Of a stretch of 64,000 nucleotides of DNA, positions 2,077 through 58,848 are shown one piece after another. The notes under the pieces are model-generated. The model saw nothing but the letters and a program-made list of their open reading frames with translations. It had not been told where the DNA came from and did no database searches. Source of the DNA: Nodularia spumigena CCY9414. GTDB taxonomy: Bacteria; Cyanobacteriota; Cyanobacteriia; Cyanobacteriales; Nostocaceae. The position numbers and the translations under genes are program-made. Position 1 is the first letter of the stretch. Each line of letters begins with the position of its first letter. The DNA is taken from the NCBI RefSeq assembly GCF_000340565.2, contig NZ_CP007203.1, positions 3,093,824 through 3,157,823 on the forward strand. Reading direction: 5' to 3'.

Positions 2077-4359
2077 TTATGCCTCGGTTTCGGATGTAAT
2101 TAACAAAGAAGGTGCAAAAATTCTTAATAAAGCTAAGACTAAAATTGCCGGGATTAATGGTGCTGTAATCAAGTACAAAAAACAAGCATAATATAAAACA
2201 ATAATGTTAATGGCAAATACCACAGTCTGATGTAATGATGATTTTAAGTATAAAATTGGTATCCAAGCTGAGAAGGAAACAAGTAAAATGCAAATTCCAT
2301 CTCCCCACCAAGGTAAAAAGCCAAGCTGTTGTGTTTCTTTTAAGCCTATACTAATTAATTGACTGGTCATTTGTGCATGAATTTCTACACCAAACATCTT
2401 TTTTTGCTGCGGGTGGTTAGTGTAGGGAGTTAAAAATACATCTGGCTTCGTTGATTCAGTTGTATAACCAATCAGGACAATTTTGTTTCCTAACAATTGA
2501 GGCTCAAAATCATTATTAATAATTTGGCTCAAACTAATTTCTGCTGCTACTTTTCCTGAAGAACGGTAATTGAGCAAGATTTGATAACCTTTATCATCTA
2601 TTTGTTGGTAAAATCCATTTTTATTACGTAATTCATGCAAACGATTGAAAATAACACTCTCTGGACTAATTCCTTTTGAGTTTAAAAACCTGAATGCTAG
2701 TTGTGAGCTAAAAGAGTATTTAGCTTGACAATAAGATAGTTCTGTGGGTGTGGCGTAAATGAGTTGACGACGAACAATATTATCAGGATCTTTATTAATA
2801 TTATTAAAGCTTCTACTGGTTTGGGGACTTCCTGGTGGGGGTTTTAAGCCAAGATCATTTTTAGTTTTAGCTTGGGGATGACCGAATTTACATATAGTCA
2901 CAATATTGGGGTTTTCTTGAAGATAGCTATTTAACTCTTGATTACCTGGATTGAGAGGAATATTCCGAAGAATATCTAAACCTATAGCTATTGGTTGATG
3001 CTGATTGATATTTTCTAAGGCTTTTAATATTAAGCGATCGCTAATCGGATCTTGAGCAAATTCTTGAATATCTGCTTCTGTGACTTTAACGATTACTAGG
3101 TGCGGATCAGGTTCTTTGTCTGGAAGCATCCGCAAAAAATGATCGTAAGCTTTCAGTTCTAATGGTTGTAAAATACCAAGCGATCGCACTCCCATCACTA
3201 AGCCAGTGAATACAAAACTTGTCAGCAACAAATGCAAAAATTTAATCTGGCTGACTTGTGGGGTTTGTCGTTTTATTCCGATTAAATCATGCCATGTTGG
3301 TGGAATCACTGCCGGATTCTGAAAAATTACAGGTAGCCAAGTTGCACAAGGAAATTTATCTTCTAACCCTTGCAACTGTTCCCTAGCTTCTCTGACAGCA
3401 ATATATAAAGATTTACCCTGAGCAAATTTCTTCAAAAAGGACTTTAAAAACTCATGGGCTACTTGATCAGGAACTAATTCCCGCATCACAATTGTTTGCG
3501 GAATATTTAAGTTATACAGACTTCTAGCTAATCCTAATCCATCACAAGAATTAAAAATTGCTAACTTTAAACCTTTCTCTATAGCTTTTTTTAATCCATA
3601 ACATAGTTCATCAATACTCAGACTATCATGAGGATTAATATCAATTGTACCTGTTTCTGATTTTGTCCTACTATGTCCAGCAAAAAAGATAATATCCCAA
3701 TTTTTCTCCCAAAGTTCGTCATTAATTTCCCGGCGGTGTGGTTCATCGAGAAACACTAAGTCAACATTGGGTAAACTCTGTAATAACAGTTTATCTGTCT
3801 CAATATCAATTCCTTGACGATTACCCAGAATCACTAATACTCTGACTTTAAAATTATGATTTTTTATGGATCTTGGTAATTGATAATTAGGCAAAGCCCA
3901 ACCTATTTCTGCTCGTGAATAAGATGTAAAAATATCCCATTCTTGCCAAGGAAGCTTTTGTAACTCTTGATCATCGGTATGAATGAGAAATCTAACGTCT
4001 TCATCCAGTTTTAACTGCTCTCTGATACAAACATCAATTTCCCTAAACTCTTCAGACTTCAGCCAATTATTTAATTCATTTTTTAAATCTACACTGGATT
4101 GATGACATTTTTCTACAAGTGATTGTAAAAATGATTTACTGATAATTTGTTTGTTCTTAATGCGATAGGATGCTGCTAAATTACGATATATTTCTTGCCA
4201 ATGATATTCTAGGCGATCGCTTAATTTGGGATCAGGAGGTAATTTCCCTTTCCGACGACAAAGGGAATCTATCCTTCCTTCTTCTTTAATCTCCAAACTG
4301 ACGCGAAAACCTTGTTGTAACAAGTCACCATCAAGTTCAATAACTACGACTTTACTCAT
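2077..4359 (-). CDS. CHAT-CHASE2 fusion membrane protein
   Basis: 760 residues. Residues about 120-345 form a CHAT-type caspase-like domain with His229 (FFAGHS) and Cys272 (IFNSCDG) in the expected dyad positions. A membrane helix follows at about 372-392, then a CHASE2 extracytoplasmic sensor domain (about 395-680; LKAYDHFLRMLPD, and KIVLIGYTTES near its end). Three hydrophobic helices close the protein. CHASE2 domains normally precede kinases or cyclases; here the sensor is fused to a putative protease facing the cytoplasm. It lies between DUF1822 (upstream) and DUF928 (downstream), all on the minus strand. Function is inferred: an envelope signal might control CHAT proteolysis. The ligand and substrate are not predictable from sequence. 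Confidence 0.85.
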   Translation of the reverse strand: MSKVVVIELDGDLLQQGFRVSLEIKEEGRIDSLCRRKGKLPPDPKLSDRLEYHWQEIYRNLAASYRIKNKQIISKSFLQSLVEKCHQSSVDLKNELNNWLKSEEFREIDVCIREQLKLDEDVRFLIHTDDQELQKLPWQEWDIFTSYSRAEIGWALPNYQLPRSIKNHNFKVRVLVILGNRQGIDIETDKLLLQSLPNVDLVFLDEPHRREINDELWEKNWDIIFFAGHSRTKSETGTIDINPHDSLSIDELCYGLKKAIEKGLKLAIFNSCDGLGLARSLYNLNIPQTIVMRELVPDQVAHEFLKSFLKKFAQGKSLYIAVREAREQLQGLEDKFPCATWLPVIFQNPAVIPPTWHDLIGIKRQTPQVSQIKFLHLLLTSFVFTGLVMGVRSLGILQPLELKAYDHFLRMLPDKEPDPHLVIVKVTEADIQEFAQDPISDRLILKALENINQHQPIAIGLDILRNIPLNPGNQELNSYLQENPNIVTICKFGHPQAKTKNDLGLKPPPGSPQTSRSFNNINKDPDNIVRRQLIYATPTELSYCQAKYSFSSQLAFRFLNSKGISPESVIFNRLHELRNKNGFYQQIDDKGYQILLNYRSSGKVAAEISLSQIINNDFEPQLLGNKIVLIGYTTESTKPDVFLTPYTNHPQQKKMFGVEIHAQMTSQLISIGLKETQQLGFLPWWGDGICILLVSFSAWIPILYLKSSLHQTVVFAINIIVLYYACFLYLITAPLIPAILVLALLRIFAPSLLITSETEA

Positions 4360-7028: not shown

Positions 7029-7207
7029 AAATCAATTTAGGAATCACGTTTGATTACTGAAATTACTCGTAGAGATAGGAAACAGGGAACGAACAGGAAA
7101 AAATCAGTAACAGCATACTGAATGTTTTTCAAAAATCAAATAGGAGTCTTACTGCGAAAACTCTCTTTCAGCATTCAGTAATAAATAGAACGTTCTGAGA
7201 TTAACTT

Positions 7208-7297
7208 AGGACTTACGCAAATTTATGGGAAAACCAACCACAGAGGCACAGAGTACACCGAGTCAAGAGGGTTTAAGAGAGTTTCTGCGTAAGTCCT
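7208..7297. mobile_element. 90-bp MITE, GGACTTACGC family
   Basis: The same terminal inverted repeat as the 6839 element with a different, shorter core; TA flanks both sides. The core (ACCACAGAGGCACAGAG region) is shared in type with the copies at 16698 and 19634. It lies directly upstream of the lipoprotein start at 7306 and supplies an in-frame ATG at 7225 that makes the lipoprotein frame look 27 residues longer. Confidence 0.75.
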
Positions 7298-7305
7298 ATA
7301 ACTTT

Positions 7306-7674
7306 ATGTCAAAAAGTTTTGCCACCCGTAGGCTTTTGGGAATTTTAATTACCTGTGTAATGATTACTTCTTGTAGTGGCGGTACATCAAGTAATACTCC
7401 TAATGGGGGAGGGGGTAACAACAGTCAGAATCAAAATGCTGATAGTGGAGGTACATCAAGTAATACTTCTAATGGGGGAGGGGGTGACAACAGTCAGAAT
7501 CAAAATGCTGAAAGATCTGAAGAAGAATGGCAGCAATATAGGATTGATTGTCAAGGTTCCTCGACTCCGATTTCTCGAAGAACTTTTAGTGATGGTTCAA
7601 GAGGAAGATGTGAATTTGGTCCGAGGAGACGGGCAGATGGCTCTAGTATACCAGTTGCTTTTAGAGATAGATAA
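7306..7674 (+). CDS. Small lipoprotein with internal duplicated segment
   Basis: 122 residues from the ATG at 7306. This start is chosen because MSKSFATRRLLGILITCVMI plus TSC gives a proper lipoprotein signal with a lipobox Cys at residue 23, and because the paralogue at 8052 begins identically. The longer frame from 7225 would be encoded by the inserted MITE. After the Cys there are two 23-residue repeats (SGGTSSNT..NGGGG..NSQNQNA), forming a low-complexity linker. The C-terminal domain of about 50 residues is basic with two Cys and is not recognised. It is probably anchored to a membrane facing the periplasm. The upstream region and signal peptide are duplicated at 8052. Confidence 0.65.
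   Translation: MSKSFATRRLLGILITCVMITSCSGGTSSNTPNGGGGNNSQNQNADSGGTSSNTSNGGGGDNSQNQNAERSEEEWQQYRIDCQGSSTPISRRTFSDGSRGRCEFGPRRRADGSSIPVAFRDR
7375..7512 (+). repeat. Tandem 69-bp duplication inside lipoprotein gene
   Basis: Two in-frame 69-base units (7375-7443 and 7444-7512), nearly identical, each encoding 23 residues rich in Gly, Ser and Asn. The near identity implies a recent duplication or repeat-unit expansion. Confidence 0.85.
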
Positions 7675-7815
7675 TCAATATATCAACCAATTGAACTAAC
7701 TAGTACCGCTAGCCGTTCATCAAAAGTCAAAAAGCTGATCAAACAGGCTTTTCAAGGATTTTAAATGGTTGCTTTATTTACGCTGTGCTGTACTAGCATC
7801 AATATTTAGTCAAAG

Positions 7816-7840
7816 ATTGCGGGCATCTTGCCCGCTTACA
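7816..7840. repeat. Palindromic repeat (GCGGGCATCTTGCCCGC type), copy 1
   Basis: A 17-base palindrome core at 7819-7835 able to form a GCGGGC hairpin; the same 25 bases recur at 8420-8444, downstream of the paralogous lipoprotein gene. Related hairpins (GGCATCTTGCC) are dispersed in cyanobacterial genomes; one lies inside the repeat at 53963. The rest of the 7675-8051 gap holds the duplicated upstream region of the second lipoprotein gene. Confidence 0.6.
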
Positions 7841-8051
7841 TTTGAGATGCGCTAACCCTGGTAATTTAACAGTGAAAATAAAGTAACATAGCCGGAGTTA
7901 GTTAGATTATTTATCACATCACAATGGTGATTGATGCTGTCGTCAACCCACTGCAATCATTACAAGTTCGTATAAAATTTATTTACAAATCACCCTGGGA
8001 AAACTCTCTTTCAGCCTCATGTAATAAGTAGAACGTTGTGAGATTAATTTT

Positions 8052-8396
8052 ATGTCCAAAAATTTGGCTACCCGTAGGCTTTTGGGAATTTTAATTACCT
8101 GTGTAATGATTACTTCCTGTAGTGGAGGTACATCAAGTAATACTCCCCCCATTTACCCCACTGAACCCACTGAACCCCCCGAACCCCCCCAAACCTTAAC
8201 TATTACCGTTCCGTCTTTAGGTTATGTAGCAACAGTTGATAGAAATACAACTTTCGGAGAAATTAATAGCACAGCCACAGATTTAACTGGTCAGTGTGTA
8301 GACAGATTTGGTTTGAGTCAACAAGGTACCACTTGCCGGGCTGAAGTACAAGCAGCACAAAGAGAGGCGGTTAGGTTTATCAATCAAGCTAATTAG
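8052..8396 (+). CDS. Small lipoprotein, paralogue of the 7306 gene
   Basis: 114 residues. The first 30 residues (MSKNLATRRLLGILITCVMI, then TSCSGGTSSNTP) almost repeat those of the 7306 gene, including the lipobox Cys; the roughly 60 bases upstream are duplicated as well. A Pro/Thr/Glu linker follows. The C-terminal domain (about 50-114) differs from the neighbour's and has two Cys (GQCVDRF and TTCRAEV), probably a disulphide in the periplasm. The family is not recognised. The pair looks like a duplication in which only promoter, signal and linker were kept. Confidence 0.65.
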   Translation: MSKNLATRRLLGILITCVMITSCSGGTSSNTPPIYPTEPTEPPEPPQTLTITVPSLGYVATVDRNTTFGEINSTATDLTGQCVDRFGLSQQGTTCRAEVQAAQREAVRFINQAN

Positions 8397-37243: not shown

Positions 37244-38119
37244 ATGCCTGTAGAAACTAATAATAATCAAAAAAAACCCAATCAACCGCCGAAAAATAGG
37301 CAGTTGGGCGGGAGTTTACTGATTCTGTTAAGTTTGTTATTAATGCTTAACTTAATCGTTCCCAGTTTGTTTTGGCAGCGACAAGCGCAAGTTCCCTACA
37401 GTCAGTTTATTGCTCAGGTGCAAAATAATCAAGTTGAGCAAGCTGTTGTGGGTAGCGATCGCATTGAATATACCATCAAAACCCAAACACCTGAAGGCGA
37501 AACCGTAGAAAAAGTATTTACCACTACGCCAGTAGCTCTCGATTTAGATTTGCCCAAAATTCTCCGTGAGCATGATGTCGAATTTACCGCCCCACCGCCA
37601 TCTGAGAACGCCTGGATAGGTACATTACTCAGTTGGGTGGTTCCGCCGCTCATTTTCTTTGGAATTTGGGGCTTCTTAATCAATCGCCAAGGCGGTGGTC
37701 CTGCGGCGCTAACGGTAGGTAAAAGCAAAGCCCGCATCTATTCTGAAGGCATCACAGGTGTAAAATTCAGTGACGTTGCTGGTGTAGATGAAGCTAAAGC
37801 CGAACTGGAAGAAATTATTGATTTTCTCAAAAATGCGGGTAAATACACCAGACTGGGGGCAAAAATTCCCAAAGGTGTCTTATTAGTCGGACCCCCAGGA
37901 ACAGGTAAAACCATGCTCGCCAAAGCTGTTGCGGGTGAAGCTGGTGTTCCCTTCTTCAGCATTTCTGGTTCCGAATTTATTGAGTTATTCGTCGGTGTCG
38001 GTGCTTCACGAGTGCGGGACTTGTTCGACCAAGCTAAACAGCAAGCTCCTTGTATTGTCTTTATTGACCGAAAAACGAGACGCAAGCCCCTGACTTTAGG
38101 CATGGGGAGAAGGCGGTAA
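37244..38119 (+). pseudogene. ftsH: FtsH protease, 5' part, interrupted by 382-bp element
   Basis: FtsH is a membrane-bound ATP-dependent zinc metalloprotease for quality control, including photosystem repair in cyanobacteria. This part codes residues 1-275 of the native protein: membrane helix 1 (22-43), a lumenal domain, helix 2 (125-147), and the AAA module with Walker A GPPGTGKT (216-223). The native frame ends at 38068 with FID; the next 17 codons and the stop come from the inserted element. The break lies between Asp275 and Glu276 of the Walker B motif. Exact removal of the element joins GAC to GAA in frame and gives a 648-residue FtsH, a normal length. Start ATG follows GGAGG. Confidence 0.9.
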
Positions 38120-38450
38120 GAACTTTTAAGTTCCGTCAAACGATTGCGTGGCTTTAGCCACAGTGTTAAAATAGATTAGCGAGAAAACAAGTAGGAATAA
38201 CCTTCAGCGCATTGAAGTATCCTAGTACGGAGCAATCCCGGCAACGGACATATCCGACTCGATTCGGAATAGTTAAAGGGCGAATAATGGCAGGATATGG
38301 AGCGTTCATCTTTAAAATATGAAGGACTCAGAAAGTATGCGCGAATGAGAGCAAAAGCTCTTTGAGTGAGTAGAGGGATACTTGAATGTCCCGTTGTCGC
38401 CTTTTTCAGGTAGGCAAGAATCCCCTGGCTTTAGACGTGGGGAGGTTCAA
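38069..38450 (+). mobile_element. 382-bp non-autonomous IS200/IS605-like element, copy 1 (in ftsH)
   Basis: Begins CGAAAAACGAG, ends GGGGAGGTTCAA. Left subterminal hairpin CCCCTG...CATGGGG and right hairpin CCCCTGGC...CGTGGGG, each with an unpaired T, as in Y1-transposase IS200/IS605 ends. The left flank is TTGAC; there is no target duplication. No transposase frame. Internal hairpins visible: GAACTT/AAGTTC, GTGGCT/AGCCAC, CTTCA/TGAAG, CGGA/TCCG, AGAGC/GCTCT, GGGATA/TGTCCC. It reads identical to copies at 40205 and 54649. Same direction as ftsH. The length (382) is not a multiple of three and it adds an in-frame stop. Confidence 0.85.
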
Positions 38451-39572
38451 GAATTAGACGCGCTGGGTAAGTCTCGCGGTGGTGCTGGACCAATGATGGG
38501 CGGTAACGATGAACGCGAACAAACTCTCAACCAGTTACTCAGCGAAATGGATGGTTTTGACGCTAACACAGGGGTGATAATTATCGCCGCTACTAACCGT
38601 CCTGAAGTCATTGACCCGGCTTTAAGTCGTCCGGGACGATTTGACCGTCAAGTTGTGGTTGACCGCCCTGATAAAAGCGGGAGAGAAGCTATTCTCAATG
38701 TCCATGCTAAAAATGTCAAATTAGCTAATGATGTGAATTTGTCAACTATTGCGGCGAGAACTCCTGGTTTTGCGGGTGCAGATTTAGCTAACTTGGTGAA
38801 TGAAGCGGCATTATTAGCAGCCCGAAAAAATCGCCAAGCTGTGATTATGGCAGATTTTAATGAAGCTATTGAGCGCTTGGTGGCTGGTTTAGAAAAACGC
38901 TCTCGTGTCCTGAATGAACTGGAGAAAACCACTGTAGCTTATCACGAAGTTGGTCACGCGCTCATCGGTGCGTTGATGCCTGGGGCTGGTAAAGTGGAAA
39001 AAATCTCTGTTGTCCCCCGTGGTGTGGGTGCTTTGGGTTATACAATTCAGATGCCGGAAGAAGACCGCTTTTTGATGATAGAAGATGAAATTCGCGGTCG
39101 CATTGCTACTTTATTGGGTGGACGTTCTGCGGAAGAAACTGTTTTTGGCAAGGTTTCCACTGGTGCGGCGGATGATATTCAAAAGGCTACTGATTTAGCA
39201 GAAAGAGCCATTACTATCTATGGAATGAGCGAAAGGTTGGGACCTGTGGCTTTTGATAAAATTCAACAACAGCAGTTCCTCGAAGGTTATGGAAATCCTC
39301 GCCGCAGTATTAGCCCCAAGGTGGCTGAGGAAATTGACCGGGAAGTGAAGCTAACTCTGGATAATGCTCATCACATTGCTTTGAGTATTTTGCATTATAA
39401 CCGCGAGTTGCTAGAGGAGACTGCACAGGCATTATTAGAGAAGGAAATTCTCGAAGGTGTTAAGTTGCGCGAATTTCTCAACCAAGTGCAAGTACCAGAT
39501 GAACTGGAGGAGTGGTTACGGACTGGGAAGTTATCCGAAGACAGACCATTGATGCAATCACTGCTGGTGTAA
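38451..39572 (+). pseudogene. ftsH: FtsH protease, 3' part
   Basis: Continues the native protein at Glu276: [11 protein letters not shown], then the AAA second region of homology ([20 protein letters not shown], 321-340 in native numbering), the protease zinc site HEVGH (His440, Glu441, His444), and the C-terminal helical domain. All conserved sites are intact with no further frame damage, so the insertion is recent or the gene is still used. Without excision, translation could only begin inside the element (ATG at 38388), giving a soluble piece lacking membrane helices and Walker A. Cyanobacteria normally have several ftsH paralogues, so loss of one may be tolerated. Confidence 0.88.
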
Positions 39573-40108: not shown

Positions 40109-40871
40109 CTATTGTTTATTTTTTTTATTCCGGCTACGCTTAGTCTTCTCAGTTATTTCTAGCTGTTTTATTTTCTTATTTAAATCAAACTCATCACTAC
40201 TGACCGAAAAACGAGACGCAAGCCCCTGACTTTAGGCATGGGGAGAAGGCGGTAAGAACTTTTAAGTTCCGTCAAACGATTGCGTGGCTTTAGCCACAGT
40301 GTTAAAATAGATTAGCGAGAAAACAAGTAGGAATAACCTTCAGCGCATTGAAGTATCCTAGTACGGAGCAATCCCGGCAACGGACATATCCGACTCGATT
40401 CGGAATAGTTAAAGGGCGAATAATGGCAGGATATGGAGCGTTCATCTTTAAAATATGAAGGACTCAGAAAGTATGCGCGAATGAGAGCAAAAGCTCTTTG
40501 AGTGAGTAGAGGGATACTTGAATGTCCCGTTGTCGCCTTTTTCAGGTAGGCAAGAATCCCCTGGCTTTAGACGTGGGGAGGTTCAATATTGTTTCCAAAT
40601 TAGCTAATCTTTGTTGTAAAATTTCTAGCTGCTGTGCTGATAAATCATGAGATTTGGCGTTTTTCTCATCAGAACGCCAAACAGCAACAGTACTAAGAGT
40701 TGCACCAAAAATAGCAGCTAAAGGCAAAATTGGACCACTTCTCGTCACACCTGCAAGTGGAATACAAATTGCCAAAATGCCAACTGTCATTTCCCAGATT
40801 TTCTTGGTAGTAATGAATCTAATATCTTTATCTGGAGATAATTCTCTCTTTTTTTGCTTTTTCTTACCCAT
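40109..40871 (-). pseudogene. Small membrane-associated protein gene interrupted by 382-bp element
   Basis: The intact part codes 95 residues from ATG at 40871 to 40587: a basic start (MGKKKQKKRE), two hydrophobic segments (TVGILAICIPLAGV, ILPLAAIFGATLSTVAVW) and the start of a coiled coil (LSAQQLEILQQRLANLETI). The element then adds 14 foreign codons and a stop (at 40542). Removing 40205-40586 continues the frame with VSSDEFDLNKKIKQLEITEK and a basic tail to a TAG at 40109-40111, giving 126 residues. The restored part continues the helical, charged character, so this was one gene. Family not recognised. The element is antisense to the gene. Confidence 0.65.
40205..40586 (+). mobile_element. 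382-bp non-autonomous IS200/IS605-like element, copy 2
   Basis: Same 382 bases as copy 1 on reading through, 2.1 kb away. Left flank CTGAC, right flank TATTG; no target duplication. Inserted antisense to the host gene at 40109-40871. Confidence 0.85.
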
Positions 40872-54648: not shown

Positions 54649-55030
54649 TTGAACCTCCCCACGTCTAAAGCCAGGGGATTCTTGCCTACCTGAAAAAGGC
54701 GACAACGGGACATTCAAGTATCCCTCTACTCACTCAAAGAGCTTTTGCTCTCATTCGCGCATACTTTCTGAGTCCTTCATATTTTAAAGATGAACGCTCC
54801 ATATCCTGCCATTATTCGCCCTTTAACTATTCCGAATCGAGTCGGATATGTCCGTTGCCGGGATTGCTCCGTACTAGGATACTTCAATGCGCTGAAGGTT
54901 ATTCCTACTTGTTTTCTCGCTAATCTATTTTAACACTGTGGCTAAAGCCACGCAATCGTTTGACGGAACTTAAAAGTTCTTACCGCCTTCTCCCCATGCC
55001 TAAAGTCAGGGGCTTGCGTCTCGTTTTTCG
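54649..55030 (-). mobile_element. 382-bp non-autonomous IS200/IS605-like element, copy 3
   Basis: Reverse complement of copies 1 and 2, reading identical through all 382 bases. On its own strand the left flank is TTGAC and the right flank ATCAT. Inserted in the intergenic region just after the YceD stop, without target duplication. Confidence 0.85.
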
Positions 55031-58203: not shown

Positions 58204-58328
58204 ATCCTGACAATCTTCAACCATCTGATACTATGTACAGGCAGAACACCGCTCATTTTTGATGCTAACTGCGGCATTTCCACTTCTATCCTGAACATGA
58301 CCGCAGTTTTCCAATCTATCTACTATAT

Positions 58329-58848
58329 CTGCACGCTAGATTGGCAGTATTTTCTCCAATTATTAGAACCTAGTTCTTCCTCATCCATTTGACTTTAACA
58401 GATGTAAAATCATTTGTCAACTCCCCAATCCTCTTTTTTGGCGTTTTCTCTGGGAGTTAATCTGTACTCTAAATGGGCAATCATTTAGCTAGTGATTTGA
58501 AGATAGTTCTCTGGGAGTTAATCTGCACGCTAGATTGGCAGTATTTTCTCCAATTATTAGAACCTAGTTCTTCCTCATCCATTTGACTTTAACAGATGTA
58601 AAATCATTTGTCAACTCCCCAATCCTCTTTTTGGCGTTTTCTCTGGGAGTTAATCTGTACTCTAAATGGGCAATCATTTAGCTAGTGATTTGAAGATAGT
58701 TCTCTGGGAGTTAATCTGCACGCTAGATTGGCAATATTTTCTTTGAGTATTAGAAACTAGTTCTTCCTTATCGGTTTTATTTTAACAGATGTAAAATCAT
58801 TTGTCAACTCCCCAATCCTCTTTTTGGCGTTTTCTCTGGGAGTTAAAT
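58329..58848. repeat. 193/194-base tandem repeat, 2.7 copies, next to sbcC
   Basis: Units begin at CTGCACGCTAG: 58329, 58523, 58716 (periods 194 and 193); the last is cut at the sbcC stop. Each unit holds two copies of TCTCTGGGAGTTAATCTG (58447, 58508, 58640, 58701; a last incomplete one at 58833), with alternating spacings of 61 and 132 bases. AACTCCC/GGGAGTT can pair as a stem within each unit. Copies 1 and 2 are almost identical. The repeat supplies the sbcC stop codon (58843-58845). The 58204-58328 stretch before it has no gene. Confidence 0.85.

Follow-up and report, generated by a model that had tools for sequence, protein, structure and literature searches.

The element in ftsH and its copies

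The window is a stretch of 64,000 nucleotides from the genome of Nodularia spumigena CCY9414, a draft of 5,462,271 bases in a single scaffold. It contains an ftsH gene interrupted by an element of 382 bases (Table 1). The frame ahead of the insertion matches the FtsH_ext and AAA domains, and the element separates GAC from GAA in the Walker B segment (I-D/E-L), exactly where an earlier note, made from the letters of the window, had placed it. The position falls in Walker B because the target is there, Ile-Asp of this ftsH being encoded by ATT GAC. Removal of the 382 bases restores the frame, also as described in that note. The insertion is precise and lineage-specific among five Nodularia genomes: all four others have the exact empty site, with a gap-free alignment across the junction (647–648 residues), the target being TTGAC in three of them and TTGAT in one. 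A need for excision does not follow, since CCY9414 has three more ftsH-like loci.

Table 1. Features of the element and its surroundings (positions in the window)
Feature	Position	Strand	Remark
ftsH, split by element copy 1	37244..39572	+	648 codons without the insertion
Target TTGAC retained at the left junction of copy 1	38064..38068	+	would double as the TnpB TAM
Element copy 1, 382 bases	38069..38450	+	within ftsH, on the gene's own strand
Left end of the element	38069..38116	+	shares 43 of 48 bases with four resident elements that carry TnpA
Left subterminal hairpin	38087-38107	+	pairing by eye
Predicted promoter: TTGCGT, 17-base spacer, extended -10 TGTTAAAAT	38144..38172	+	motif
Predicted RNA start	about 38179	+	from the promoter prediction
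Conserved RNA core, nested helices P1-P4, model R1	38187..38336	+	covariance model, ~150 nt
3' domain, TnpB reRNA/omegaRNA scaffold architecture	38327..38450	+	architecture only in the Nodularia subtype
3' domain hairpins	38347-38362; 38375-38392 (UUGA loop)	+	sequence letters
Right-end hairpin	38422-38442	+	sequence letters
Flanking DNA that would be copied as guide	38451..38470	+	inferred by analogy with the ISDra2 reRNA (PMC8612924, sections cited here)
Element copy 2, identical to copy 1	40205..40586	+	sequence comparison
Element copy 3, identical to copy 1	54649..55030	-	sequence comparison

The three copies in the window were described earlier as identical, and all of them are. The 382-base query has 36 matches in the genome, of which 28 are full length; 16 of the 28 are identical to the query, while the others differ from it at 1 to 7 positions, and six copies with five differences in common form a subfamily. 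The sixteen identical copies support the recent spread that the earlier note had supposed. Each of the 28 full-length copies is preceded by TGAC (TTGAC 21, CTGAC 6, ATGAC 1), a motif found at 0.34% of positions across the 28 copy loci, and the flanks compared revealed no target duplication, in line with what had been read from the three window copies. The same note had taken random truncation as an argument against a transposon of this type. In this respect the 28 full-length matches are intact, and eight partial matches were found as well. Five further elements, of which four have TnpA and one has TnpB only, contain six of them, and two are pieces, namely the right-end hairpin at L036 and a left-end piece adjoining an N run at L037.

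Five copies (L006, L007, L012, L021, L027) are situated at most about 600 bases from runs of 60 N, which are either scaffold gaps or masking; the remaining 23 have no N within 1.5 kb, and the window itself is N-free. Four of the five, all except L021, have a flank in common with another copy, and the common stretches end at an N run or at most 3 bases from one. The flank-sharing copies may be assembly duplicates or chimaeras; recombination or composite transposition was considered as the cause and rejected, assembly being likelier given the ends at N runs. Given these doubtful copies, the true copy number is between about 23 and 28. The window also has direct repeats that are separate from the element (58241-58820 and 7131-8146): three units of about 193 bases, and several shorter repeats.

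The stop-to-stop frames of length 30 or more in the element are 84, 53, 44 and 35 in antisense and 50 in sense; none codes for a transposase, as had been stated. Terminal inverted repeats and a target duplication, the mark of a MITE, were not found, the ends being CGAAAA...GTTCAA. By its sequence, the element is a non-autonomous IS200/IS605 transposon of the PATE type; the ends, the TTGAC target and the lack of duplication agree with the IS200/IS605 assignment proposed earlier.

At 10 of the 28 joined sites a frame of at least 110 codons spans the junction. With L001 set aside, as the first Met of its frame is at the junction, six intragenic copies are in sense (L004, L011, L012, L014, L015, L026) and three in antisense (L008, L010, L028), two of the sense sites being doubtful: L012 is near an N run, and the L026 flank is repeated at the IscB locus. 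There is no clear sense bias within genes. The gene-like hosts, named from the residues at the joined sites only, are tnpB-like for L012 (near an N run), PIN-domain-like for L014 and symporter-like for L015, and L028 is antisense in a DNA-methylase-like gene.

The orientation counts bear on the notion that the element is self-splicing, a mini-IStron removed from the ftsH mRNA so that the gene stays functional. The sense orientation of copy 1 and the in-frame empty site are what such an intron would have. However, the ratio of 6 to 3 among intragenic copies speaks against it, as do the promoter motif inside the element and the lack of any Rfam intron family in the window element (E up to 10) or in 19 related loci (E up to 1), and we regard splicing as very improbable.

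Ends of the element and resident TnpA and TnpB

Both ends carry a CCCC/GGGG subterminal hairpin with an unpaired T; the pairing was assessed by eye and agrees with the earlier description. The four elements with the matching left end have uninterrupted Y1 TnpA frames of 149–151 residues and are preceded by TTGAC in three cases and by GTGAC in one, so the related TnpA that had been postulated elsewhere in the genome exists. One resident TnpA matches PF01797 with E 1.5e-45; in total, the genome yields eight Y1_Tnp matches, four of them equal, and 45 matches to the TnpB domain PF07282. The right end is identical at 33 of 38 positions to that of a TnpB-only element, L035.

L034 was read through and has the complete plan: the left end, TnpA, a TnpB of 443 aa in which one residue is unread, and the right end GGGGAGTATCAA. 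The other three TnpA elements contain N runs. The L034 TnpB presumably has all three RuvC-type acidic motifs. The same plan, TnpB included, is seen in plasmid p1 of Planktothrix agardhii, where the left end is 89% identical over 46 bases. We infer that the element would be mobilised in trans by the resident TnpA. Relatives of this TnpA also occur at 22 viral loci.

The conserved RNA core and its promoter

The covariance model of the core, R1, has 34 sequences, 151 positions and 19 pairs. Removal of repeats reduced 45 extracted sequences to 38, from which L047, L054 and L071 were dropped as cut or poorly aligned and L081 as an own-genome repeat, leaving the 34 sequences of alignment A1. From alignment A2, L058 and L095 were left out. 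Alignment A3 has 36 sequences, of which 13 repeat A1 and one (L204) repeats L128; the remaining 22, with cores not identical to any of the 34, form A4.

Of the cells in the 34-sequence set, 92.7% pair, and changes on both sides of a pair number 36 versus 7.0 ± 2.3 in shuffles; partners slid by 1–3 columns pair in 32–43% of cells. The outermost pairs (helices 1 and 2; 62% and 89% paired) were counted on the 34 and omitted from R1. In the 22 further sequences, which were fitted to the model and hence biased towards the structure, the core sequences being mutually related as well, 94.0% of cells pair, and there are 46 both-side changes, distributed over 14 of the 19 pairs, versus 9.8 ± 2.5 in shuffles, with slid partners (1–3 columns) pairing in 32–51% of cells. 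The compensatory changes in both sets bear out conserved pairing in homologues, whose absence the earlier note would have counted against its reading. G-U pairs outnumber A-C combinations 49 to 15, or 28 to 14 without a common U-G pair, an asymmetry that fits RNA and also a single top DNA strand.

Upstream of the core, the motif TGNTANNAT begins at a distance of 15–27 bases in 27 of the 34 members, compared to 1.1 in mononucleotide shuffles, and in a second set of 35 loci, which partly repeats the first, it is present in 25. TTG at a spacer of 16–18 bases accompanies the -10 motif in 10 of these 27 members, the Nodularia element included; the -35 box is poor. The start is predicted near the first conserved base of the core, and the element seems to carry its own promoter.

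These results should be compared with another explanation, a plain PATE, in which the ends alone matter and the interior is a decayed remnant retained through recent spread, whose hairpins are of use, if at all, to the single-stranded DNA intermediate. Matching ends and target suffice for TnpA in principle, PATEs commonly accompany IS605 elements (PMC3119063, in the sections drawn on here), and the fold of the whole element is only modestly above shuffles (z -2.4 as RNA, -1.6 as DNA). On the other hand, the interior shows compensatory changes across elements with different ends, a recurring promoter motif, and a 3' domain resembling tnpB 3' ends subtype by subtype (see below). We consider this explanation unlikely, although clearly the first among the alternatives.

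Distribution of the core

The interior of the element represents a conserved family of predicted RNAs. The whole-element query matched 35 of 100 genomes (own genome included, E up to 0.001), many of them by the ends only, and a query made of the L040 core and part of the 3' domain matched 61 of 217 family genomes, again including the own one. Covariance-model search of cyanobacterial genomes, which had been suggested as a check, gave matches of R1 in at least 33 of 386 phylum genomes, own included; this is a lower bound, as at most 8 candidates per genome were considered under strict filters. All 33 belong to the same order, by labels of shared genus, family or order. R1 recovers the same 28 copies in the own genome. 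A pattern scan of a named sequence collection produced 17 stretches, including ones from Planktothrix, Nostoc, Sphaerospermopsis, Scytonema, Microcoleus and Nodularia.

The members have several types of ends: the Nodularia type and type a (CGAAAAACGAGACGC... and near variants), type b (CGTAAAAAG...GCCCC) and type c (TAAGACCTCGCGGTAAG...). Of 32 aligned rows, 28 end in TCAA, and two others are cut one base short or differ there.

For 87 of 91 cores, a count that includes duplicates and for which the flanks are mostly 1.5 kb, no match to TnpA, TnpB or IscB queries was found within 1.2 kb. The core as a part of an autonomous element was therefore rejected: a TnpA/TnpB-like match within this distance occurs for four of the 91, L137, L063, and L039 with L152, the latter two being one locus. 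In L137 the tnpB start lies beyond the right end of the non-coding element. Similarly rejected was a core hidden in tnpB or iscB elements, since R1 matched one of 13 such loci, L063, where by coordinates the core is upstream of the tnpB-like frame; the promoter and the 5' core, neither of which the earlier note had anticipated, are absent from the tnpB elements examined. In genome G533 (L137, L217) a family member is situated directly upstream of tnpB, with its own right end between them. This layout is possibly a route by which non-coding elements and tnpB become one unit.

The rarity of transposon genes near the cores, together with the promoter motif and the conserved core, would also suit a regulatory RNA coopted by the host and spread by transposition, with no nuclease partner. 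Yet the aligned members retain the right end, as seen in the TCAA rows, and keep a tnpB-like 3' domain, and cooption seems improbable to us, somewhat less so than splicing.

The core was found in no viral contig by two exact-pattern scans. Only bases 257–382 of the element are matched in Nodularia phages, in five records that represent three genomes. The pieces that were read (L097 and L098, positions about 2999-3126; Nodularia phages kac68v161 and 2AV2) directly follow TTGAC, end in GTGTCAA and overlap the end of a gene encoding an XRE-type regulator. They consist of the scaffold-like 3' domain without the left end, promoter or core, and may be a deletion relic or a guide scaffold kept by the phage.

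In the Rfam search nothing matched the window element (E up to 10), the sole weak match listed, cow-rumen-1, being outside the element; in Rfam 15, no family matched the core, either in the window element or in 20 loci. Other hits at these 20 loci were HEARO at the IscB locus L037, rpsB beside the rpsB gene in L053, and HgcC in L057. The latter covers the 3' domain and scores 24.9 bits at a gathering threshold of 50 (E 0.12); it was taken as a chance match. No published description of the RNA core was found by title or abstract in the open-licence literature.

The IscB locus L037 (positions 903500-907500 of the own genome) contains an IscB gene of 425 aa with RRXRR and HNH domains, preceded by a HEARO RNA of 82.7 bits (gathering threshold 83). 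Beside it are the left-end piece of the element and a repeated iscB 3' end around the N run, probably an assembly effect. The presence of this gene and its RNA in the same genome invites the idea that the element RNA is a stray relative of the IscB omegaRNA. In the HEARO RNA, that is the IscB omegaRNA, the guide is at the 5' end, whereas here the tnpB-like scaffold sits at the 3' end; moreover, the HEARO model matched the IscB locus but none of the 19 other loci, 14 of which have the core, and it did not match the window element at E values up to 10. A 5'-guided RNA of this kind is the least credible of all explanations considered. The family resembles HEARO (RF02033) in that the RNA is borne by an element of the IS200/IS605 superfamily, and differs from it in having no match to that model.

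The 3' domain

The profiles of the 3' domain were run without the right-end hairpin against tnpB loci. Among 46 loci, the profile built from the 12 elements of subtype a hits the tnpB 3' end on the Planktothrix plasmid at 5.9e-11 and the tnpB 3' ends of the resident elements at 6.6e-5 in five loci, some of them overlapping, and at 0.035 in two. In a set of ten tnpB loci, it is found in seven at E up to 0.024 (L099, L248, L034, L252, L250, L247, L249) and missing at this level from three (L243, 0.054; L251, none; L217, in the non-coding element only). The conserved stretch of subtype a still spells tnpB codons (PLKVRLWTLQESP; PLKIRLWTLQESP in L034).

For subtype c, the best match is the tnpB 3' end of L217, with E 1.5e-4 in a search of 181,334 residues counted over both strands and 1.9e-4 among the 46 loci. 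The best match of subtype b is the non-coding element in L217, followed weakly by the tnpB ends of L250 (0.0028) and L249 (0.0044), which share the order of subtype b: GTAAGCACAA, a spacer, and GGAGTGTCTAGGGG..TTTGAC..CCCC. By sequence comparison, the 3' domain of subtypes a and c, and weakly b, is homologous to the tnpB 3' end and is thus assigned as the scaffold.

No tnpB 3' end among the 46 or the ten loci was matched by the 3' domain profile from the five sequences of the Nodularia subtype; its best match is the non-coding element in L217 (E 0.48 and 0.15). The parts of this domain come in the same order as in the other subtypes: GTA-TGCGC, a hairpin, GAGTGAGTAG, GGGAT..TTGA..TCCC and the right-end hairpin. 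By this architecture and by the RNA homology to the other subtypes, the Nodularia 3' domain looks like a scaffold. Hence the omega-type link proposed in the earlier note stands for the 3' domain by sequence in subtypes a, c and, weakly, b, and was not detected by sequence in the Nodularia subtype itself.

Comparison with known systems

The Geobacillus PATEs of Meers et al. 2023 are said to be transposase-free IS605 relatives that keep an omegaRNA; a conserved 5' core is reportedly not part of their description.

PATEs are transposase-free relatives of IS605 (PMC3119063, PMC7290912, in the sections used). Those of Haloquadratum have near-terminal palindromes like those of IS605 and no terminal inverted repeats, duplication or transposase, and the HqIRS71 PATE includes non-coding C-terminal transposase sequence (PMC3119063, same sections). 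The Nodularia element likewise has subterminal palindromes, no duplication and no transposase; unlike the Haloquadratum PATEs, it adds a promoter motif and a structured RNA core, the cited sections of PMC3119063 mentioning no RNA for PATEs.

The reRNA of ISDra2, about 150 nt long, is drawn from the 3' end of tnpB and the right end, its last 16 nt or so being flank, and the ISDra2 TAM equals the TnpA target (PMC8612924, passages cited). By analogy, and in geometry only, the Nodularia element would have the same arrangement: a scaffold running through the right end, the guide position in the flank, and the TAM equal to the TnpA target. The differences from ISDra2 are that the scaffold is separate from tnpB, has its own promoter motif and is joined to a 150-nt 5' core.

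In the same order, the MITEs of Anabaena sp. 90 have inverted repeats and no similarity to IS ends, according to the part of PMC3542288 consulted. The element is like them in being short, multicopy and gene-interrupting, in occurring in the Nostocales and in having predicted secondary structure, and it is set apart from them by that description (PMC3542288, same part).

The genome of CCY9414 was reported to have 164 genes for transposases and, downstream of a DGR reverse transcriptase, an ncRNA in 70 copies (PMC3610870, in the portion cited). Identity of the element with this DGR1 'retrotransposon' ncRNA (RT nsp38130) was considered and is not supported: the RT match best fitting the numbering of that portion of PMC3610870, at 3867601-3868242 (L159), was checked against the 36 query matches and 28 R1 matches, and no element match was found there. 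The DGR1 ncRNA appears distinct from the element and might be another transposase-free element.

A possible mode of life of the element

The anatomy of the element, the empty sites, the trans TnpA with the same left end, the promoter motif, the compensatory changes in the core and, in other subtypes, the homology of the 3' domain to tnpB 3' ends were all computed, and the explanation that we favour, as the simplest and a rather probable one, is that of a TnpA/TnpB parasite without genes, which has its own guide RNA and is moved and retained in trans. The resident Y1 TnpA would move it as a single strand, inserting it 3' of TTGAC without duplication. Its sole cargo would be a transcription unit, whose promoter would yield an RNA of about 270 nt consisting of the structured core, the TnpB reRNA/omegaRNA scaffold and then read-through past the right end, so that the flanking DNA becomes the guide. 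TnpB, acting in trans, would load this RNA and, after excision, cut the empty site (TTGAC and guide), and repair from the sister copy would then keep the element in place. Movement in trans, expression, loading by TnpB and retention by cutting are all steps that the parasite would be expected to perform.

The role of the core would most likely be either to stabilise the RNA or to draw TnpB off the mRNA that encodes it. Since the core is conserved beside different scaffold subtypes, it is suggested to work with a scaffold and yet not to be tied to a particular one. A further-reaching proposal, which we put forward tentatively and hold to be possible rather than probable, is that the 150-nt core represents a novel RNA domain, by which a TnpB scaffold becomes a free-standing guide RNA. 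Joined as a module to the scaffold that fits the resident TnpB subtype, it would let gene-less transposons capture TnpB, and TnpA, in trans, and would have spread, with IS605 ends of at least three kinds, among filamentous cyanobacteria, parasitising RNA-guided nucleases.

Guide RNAs of transposon nucleases normally come from the nuclease's own message. If the explanation is true, the element shows a guide RNA becoming independent of the nuclease gene, a step also needed towards trans guides of the CRISPR type, and the persistence of such tiny elements would be explained. The family would be a natural set of standalone guide scaffolds, and the ftsH copy, in a cyanobacterium that forms blooms, a knock-out of a membrane protease that leaves no scar and may be reversible.
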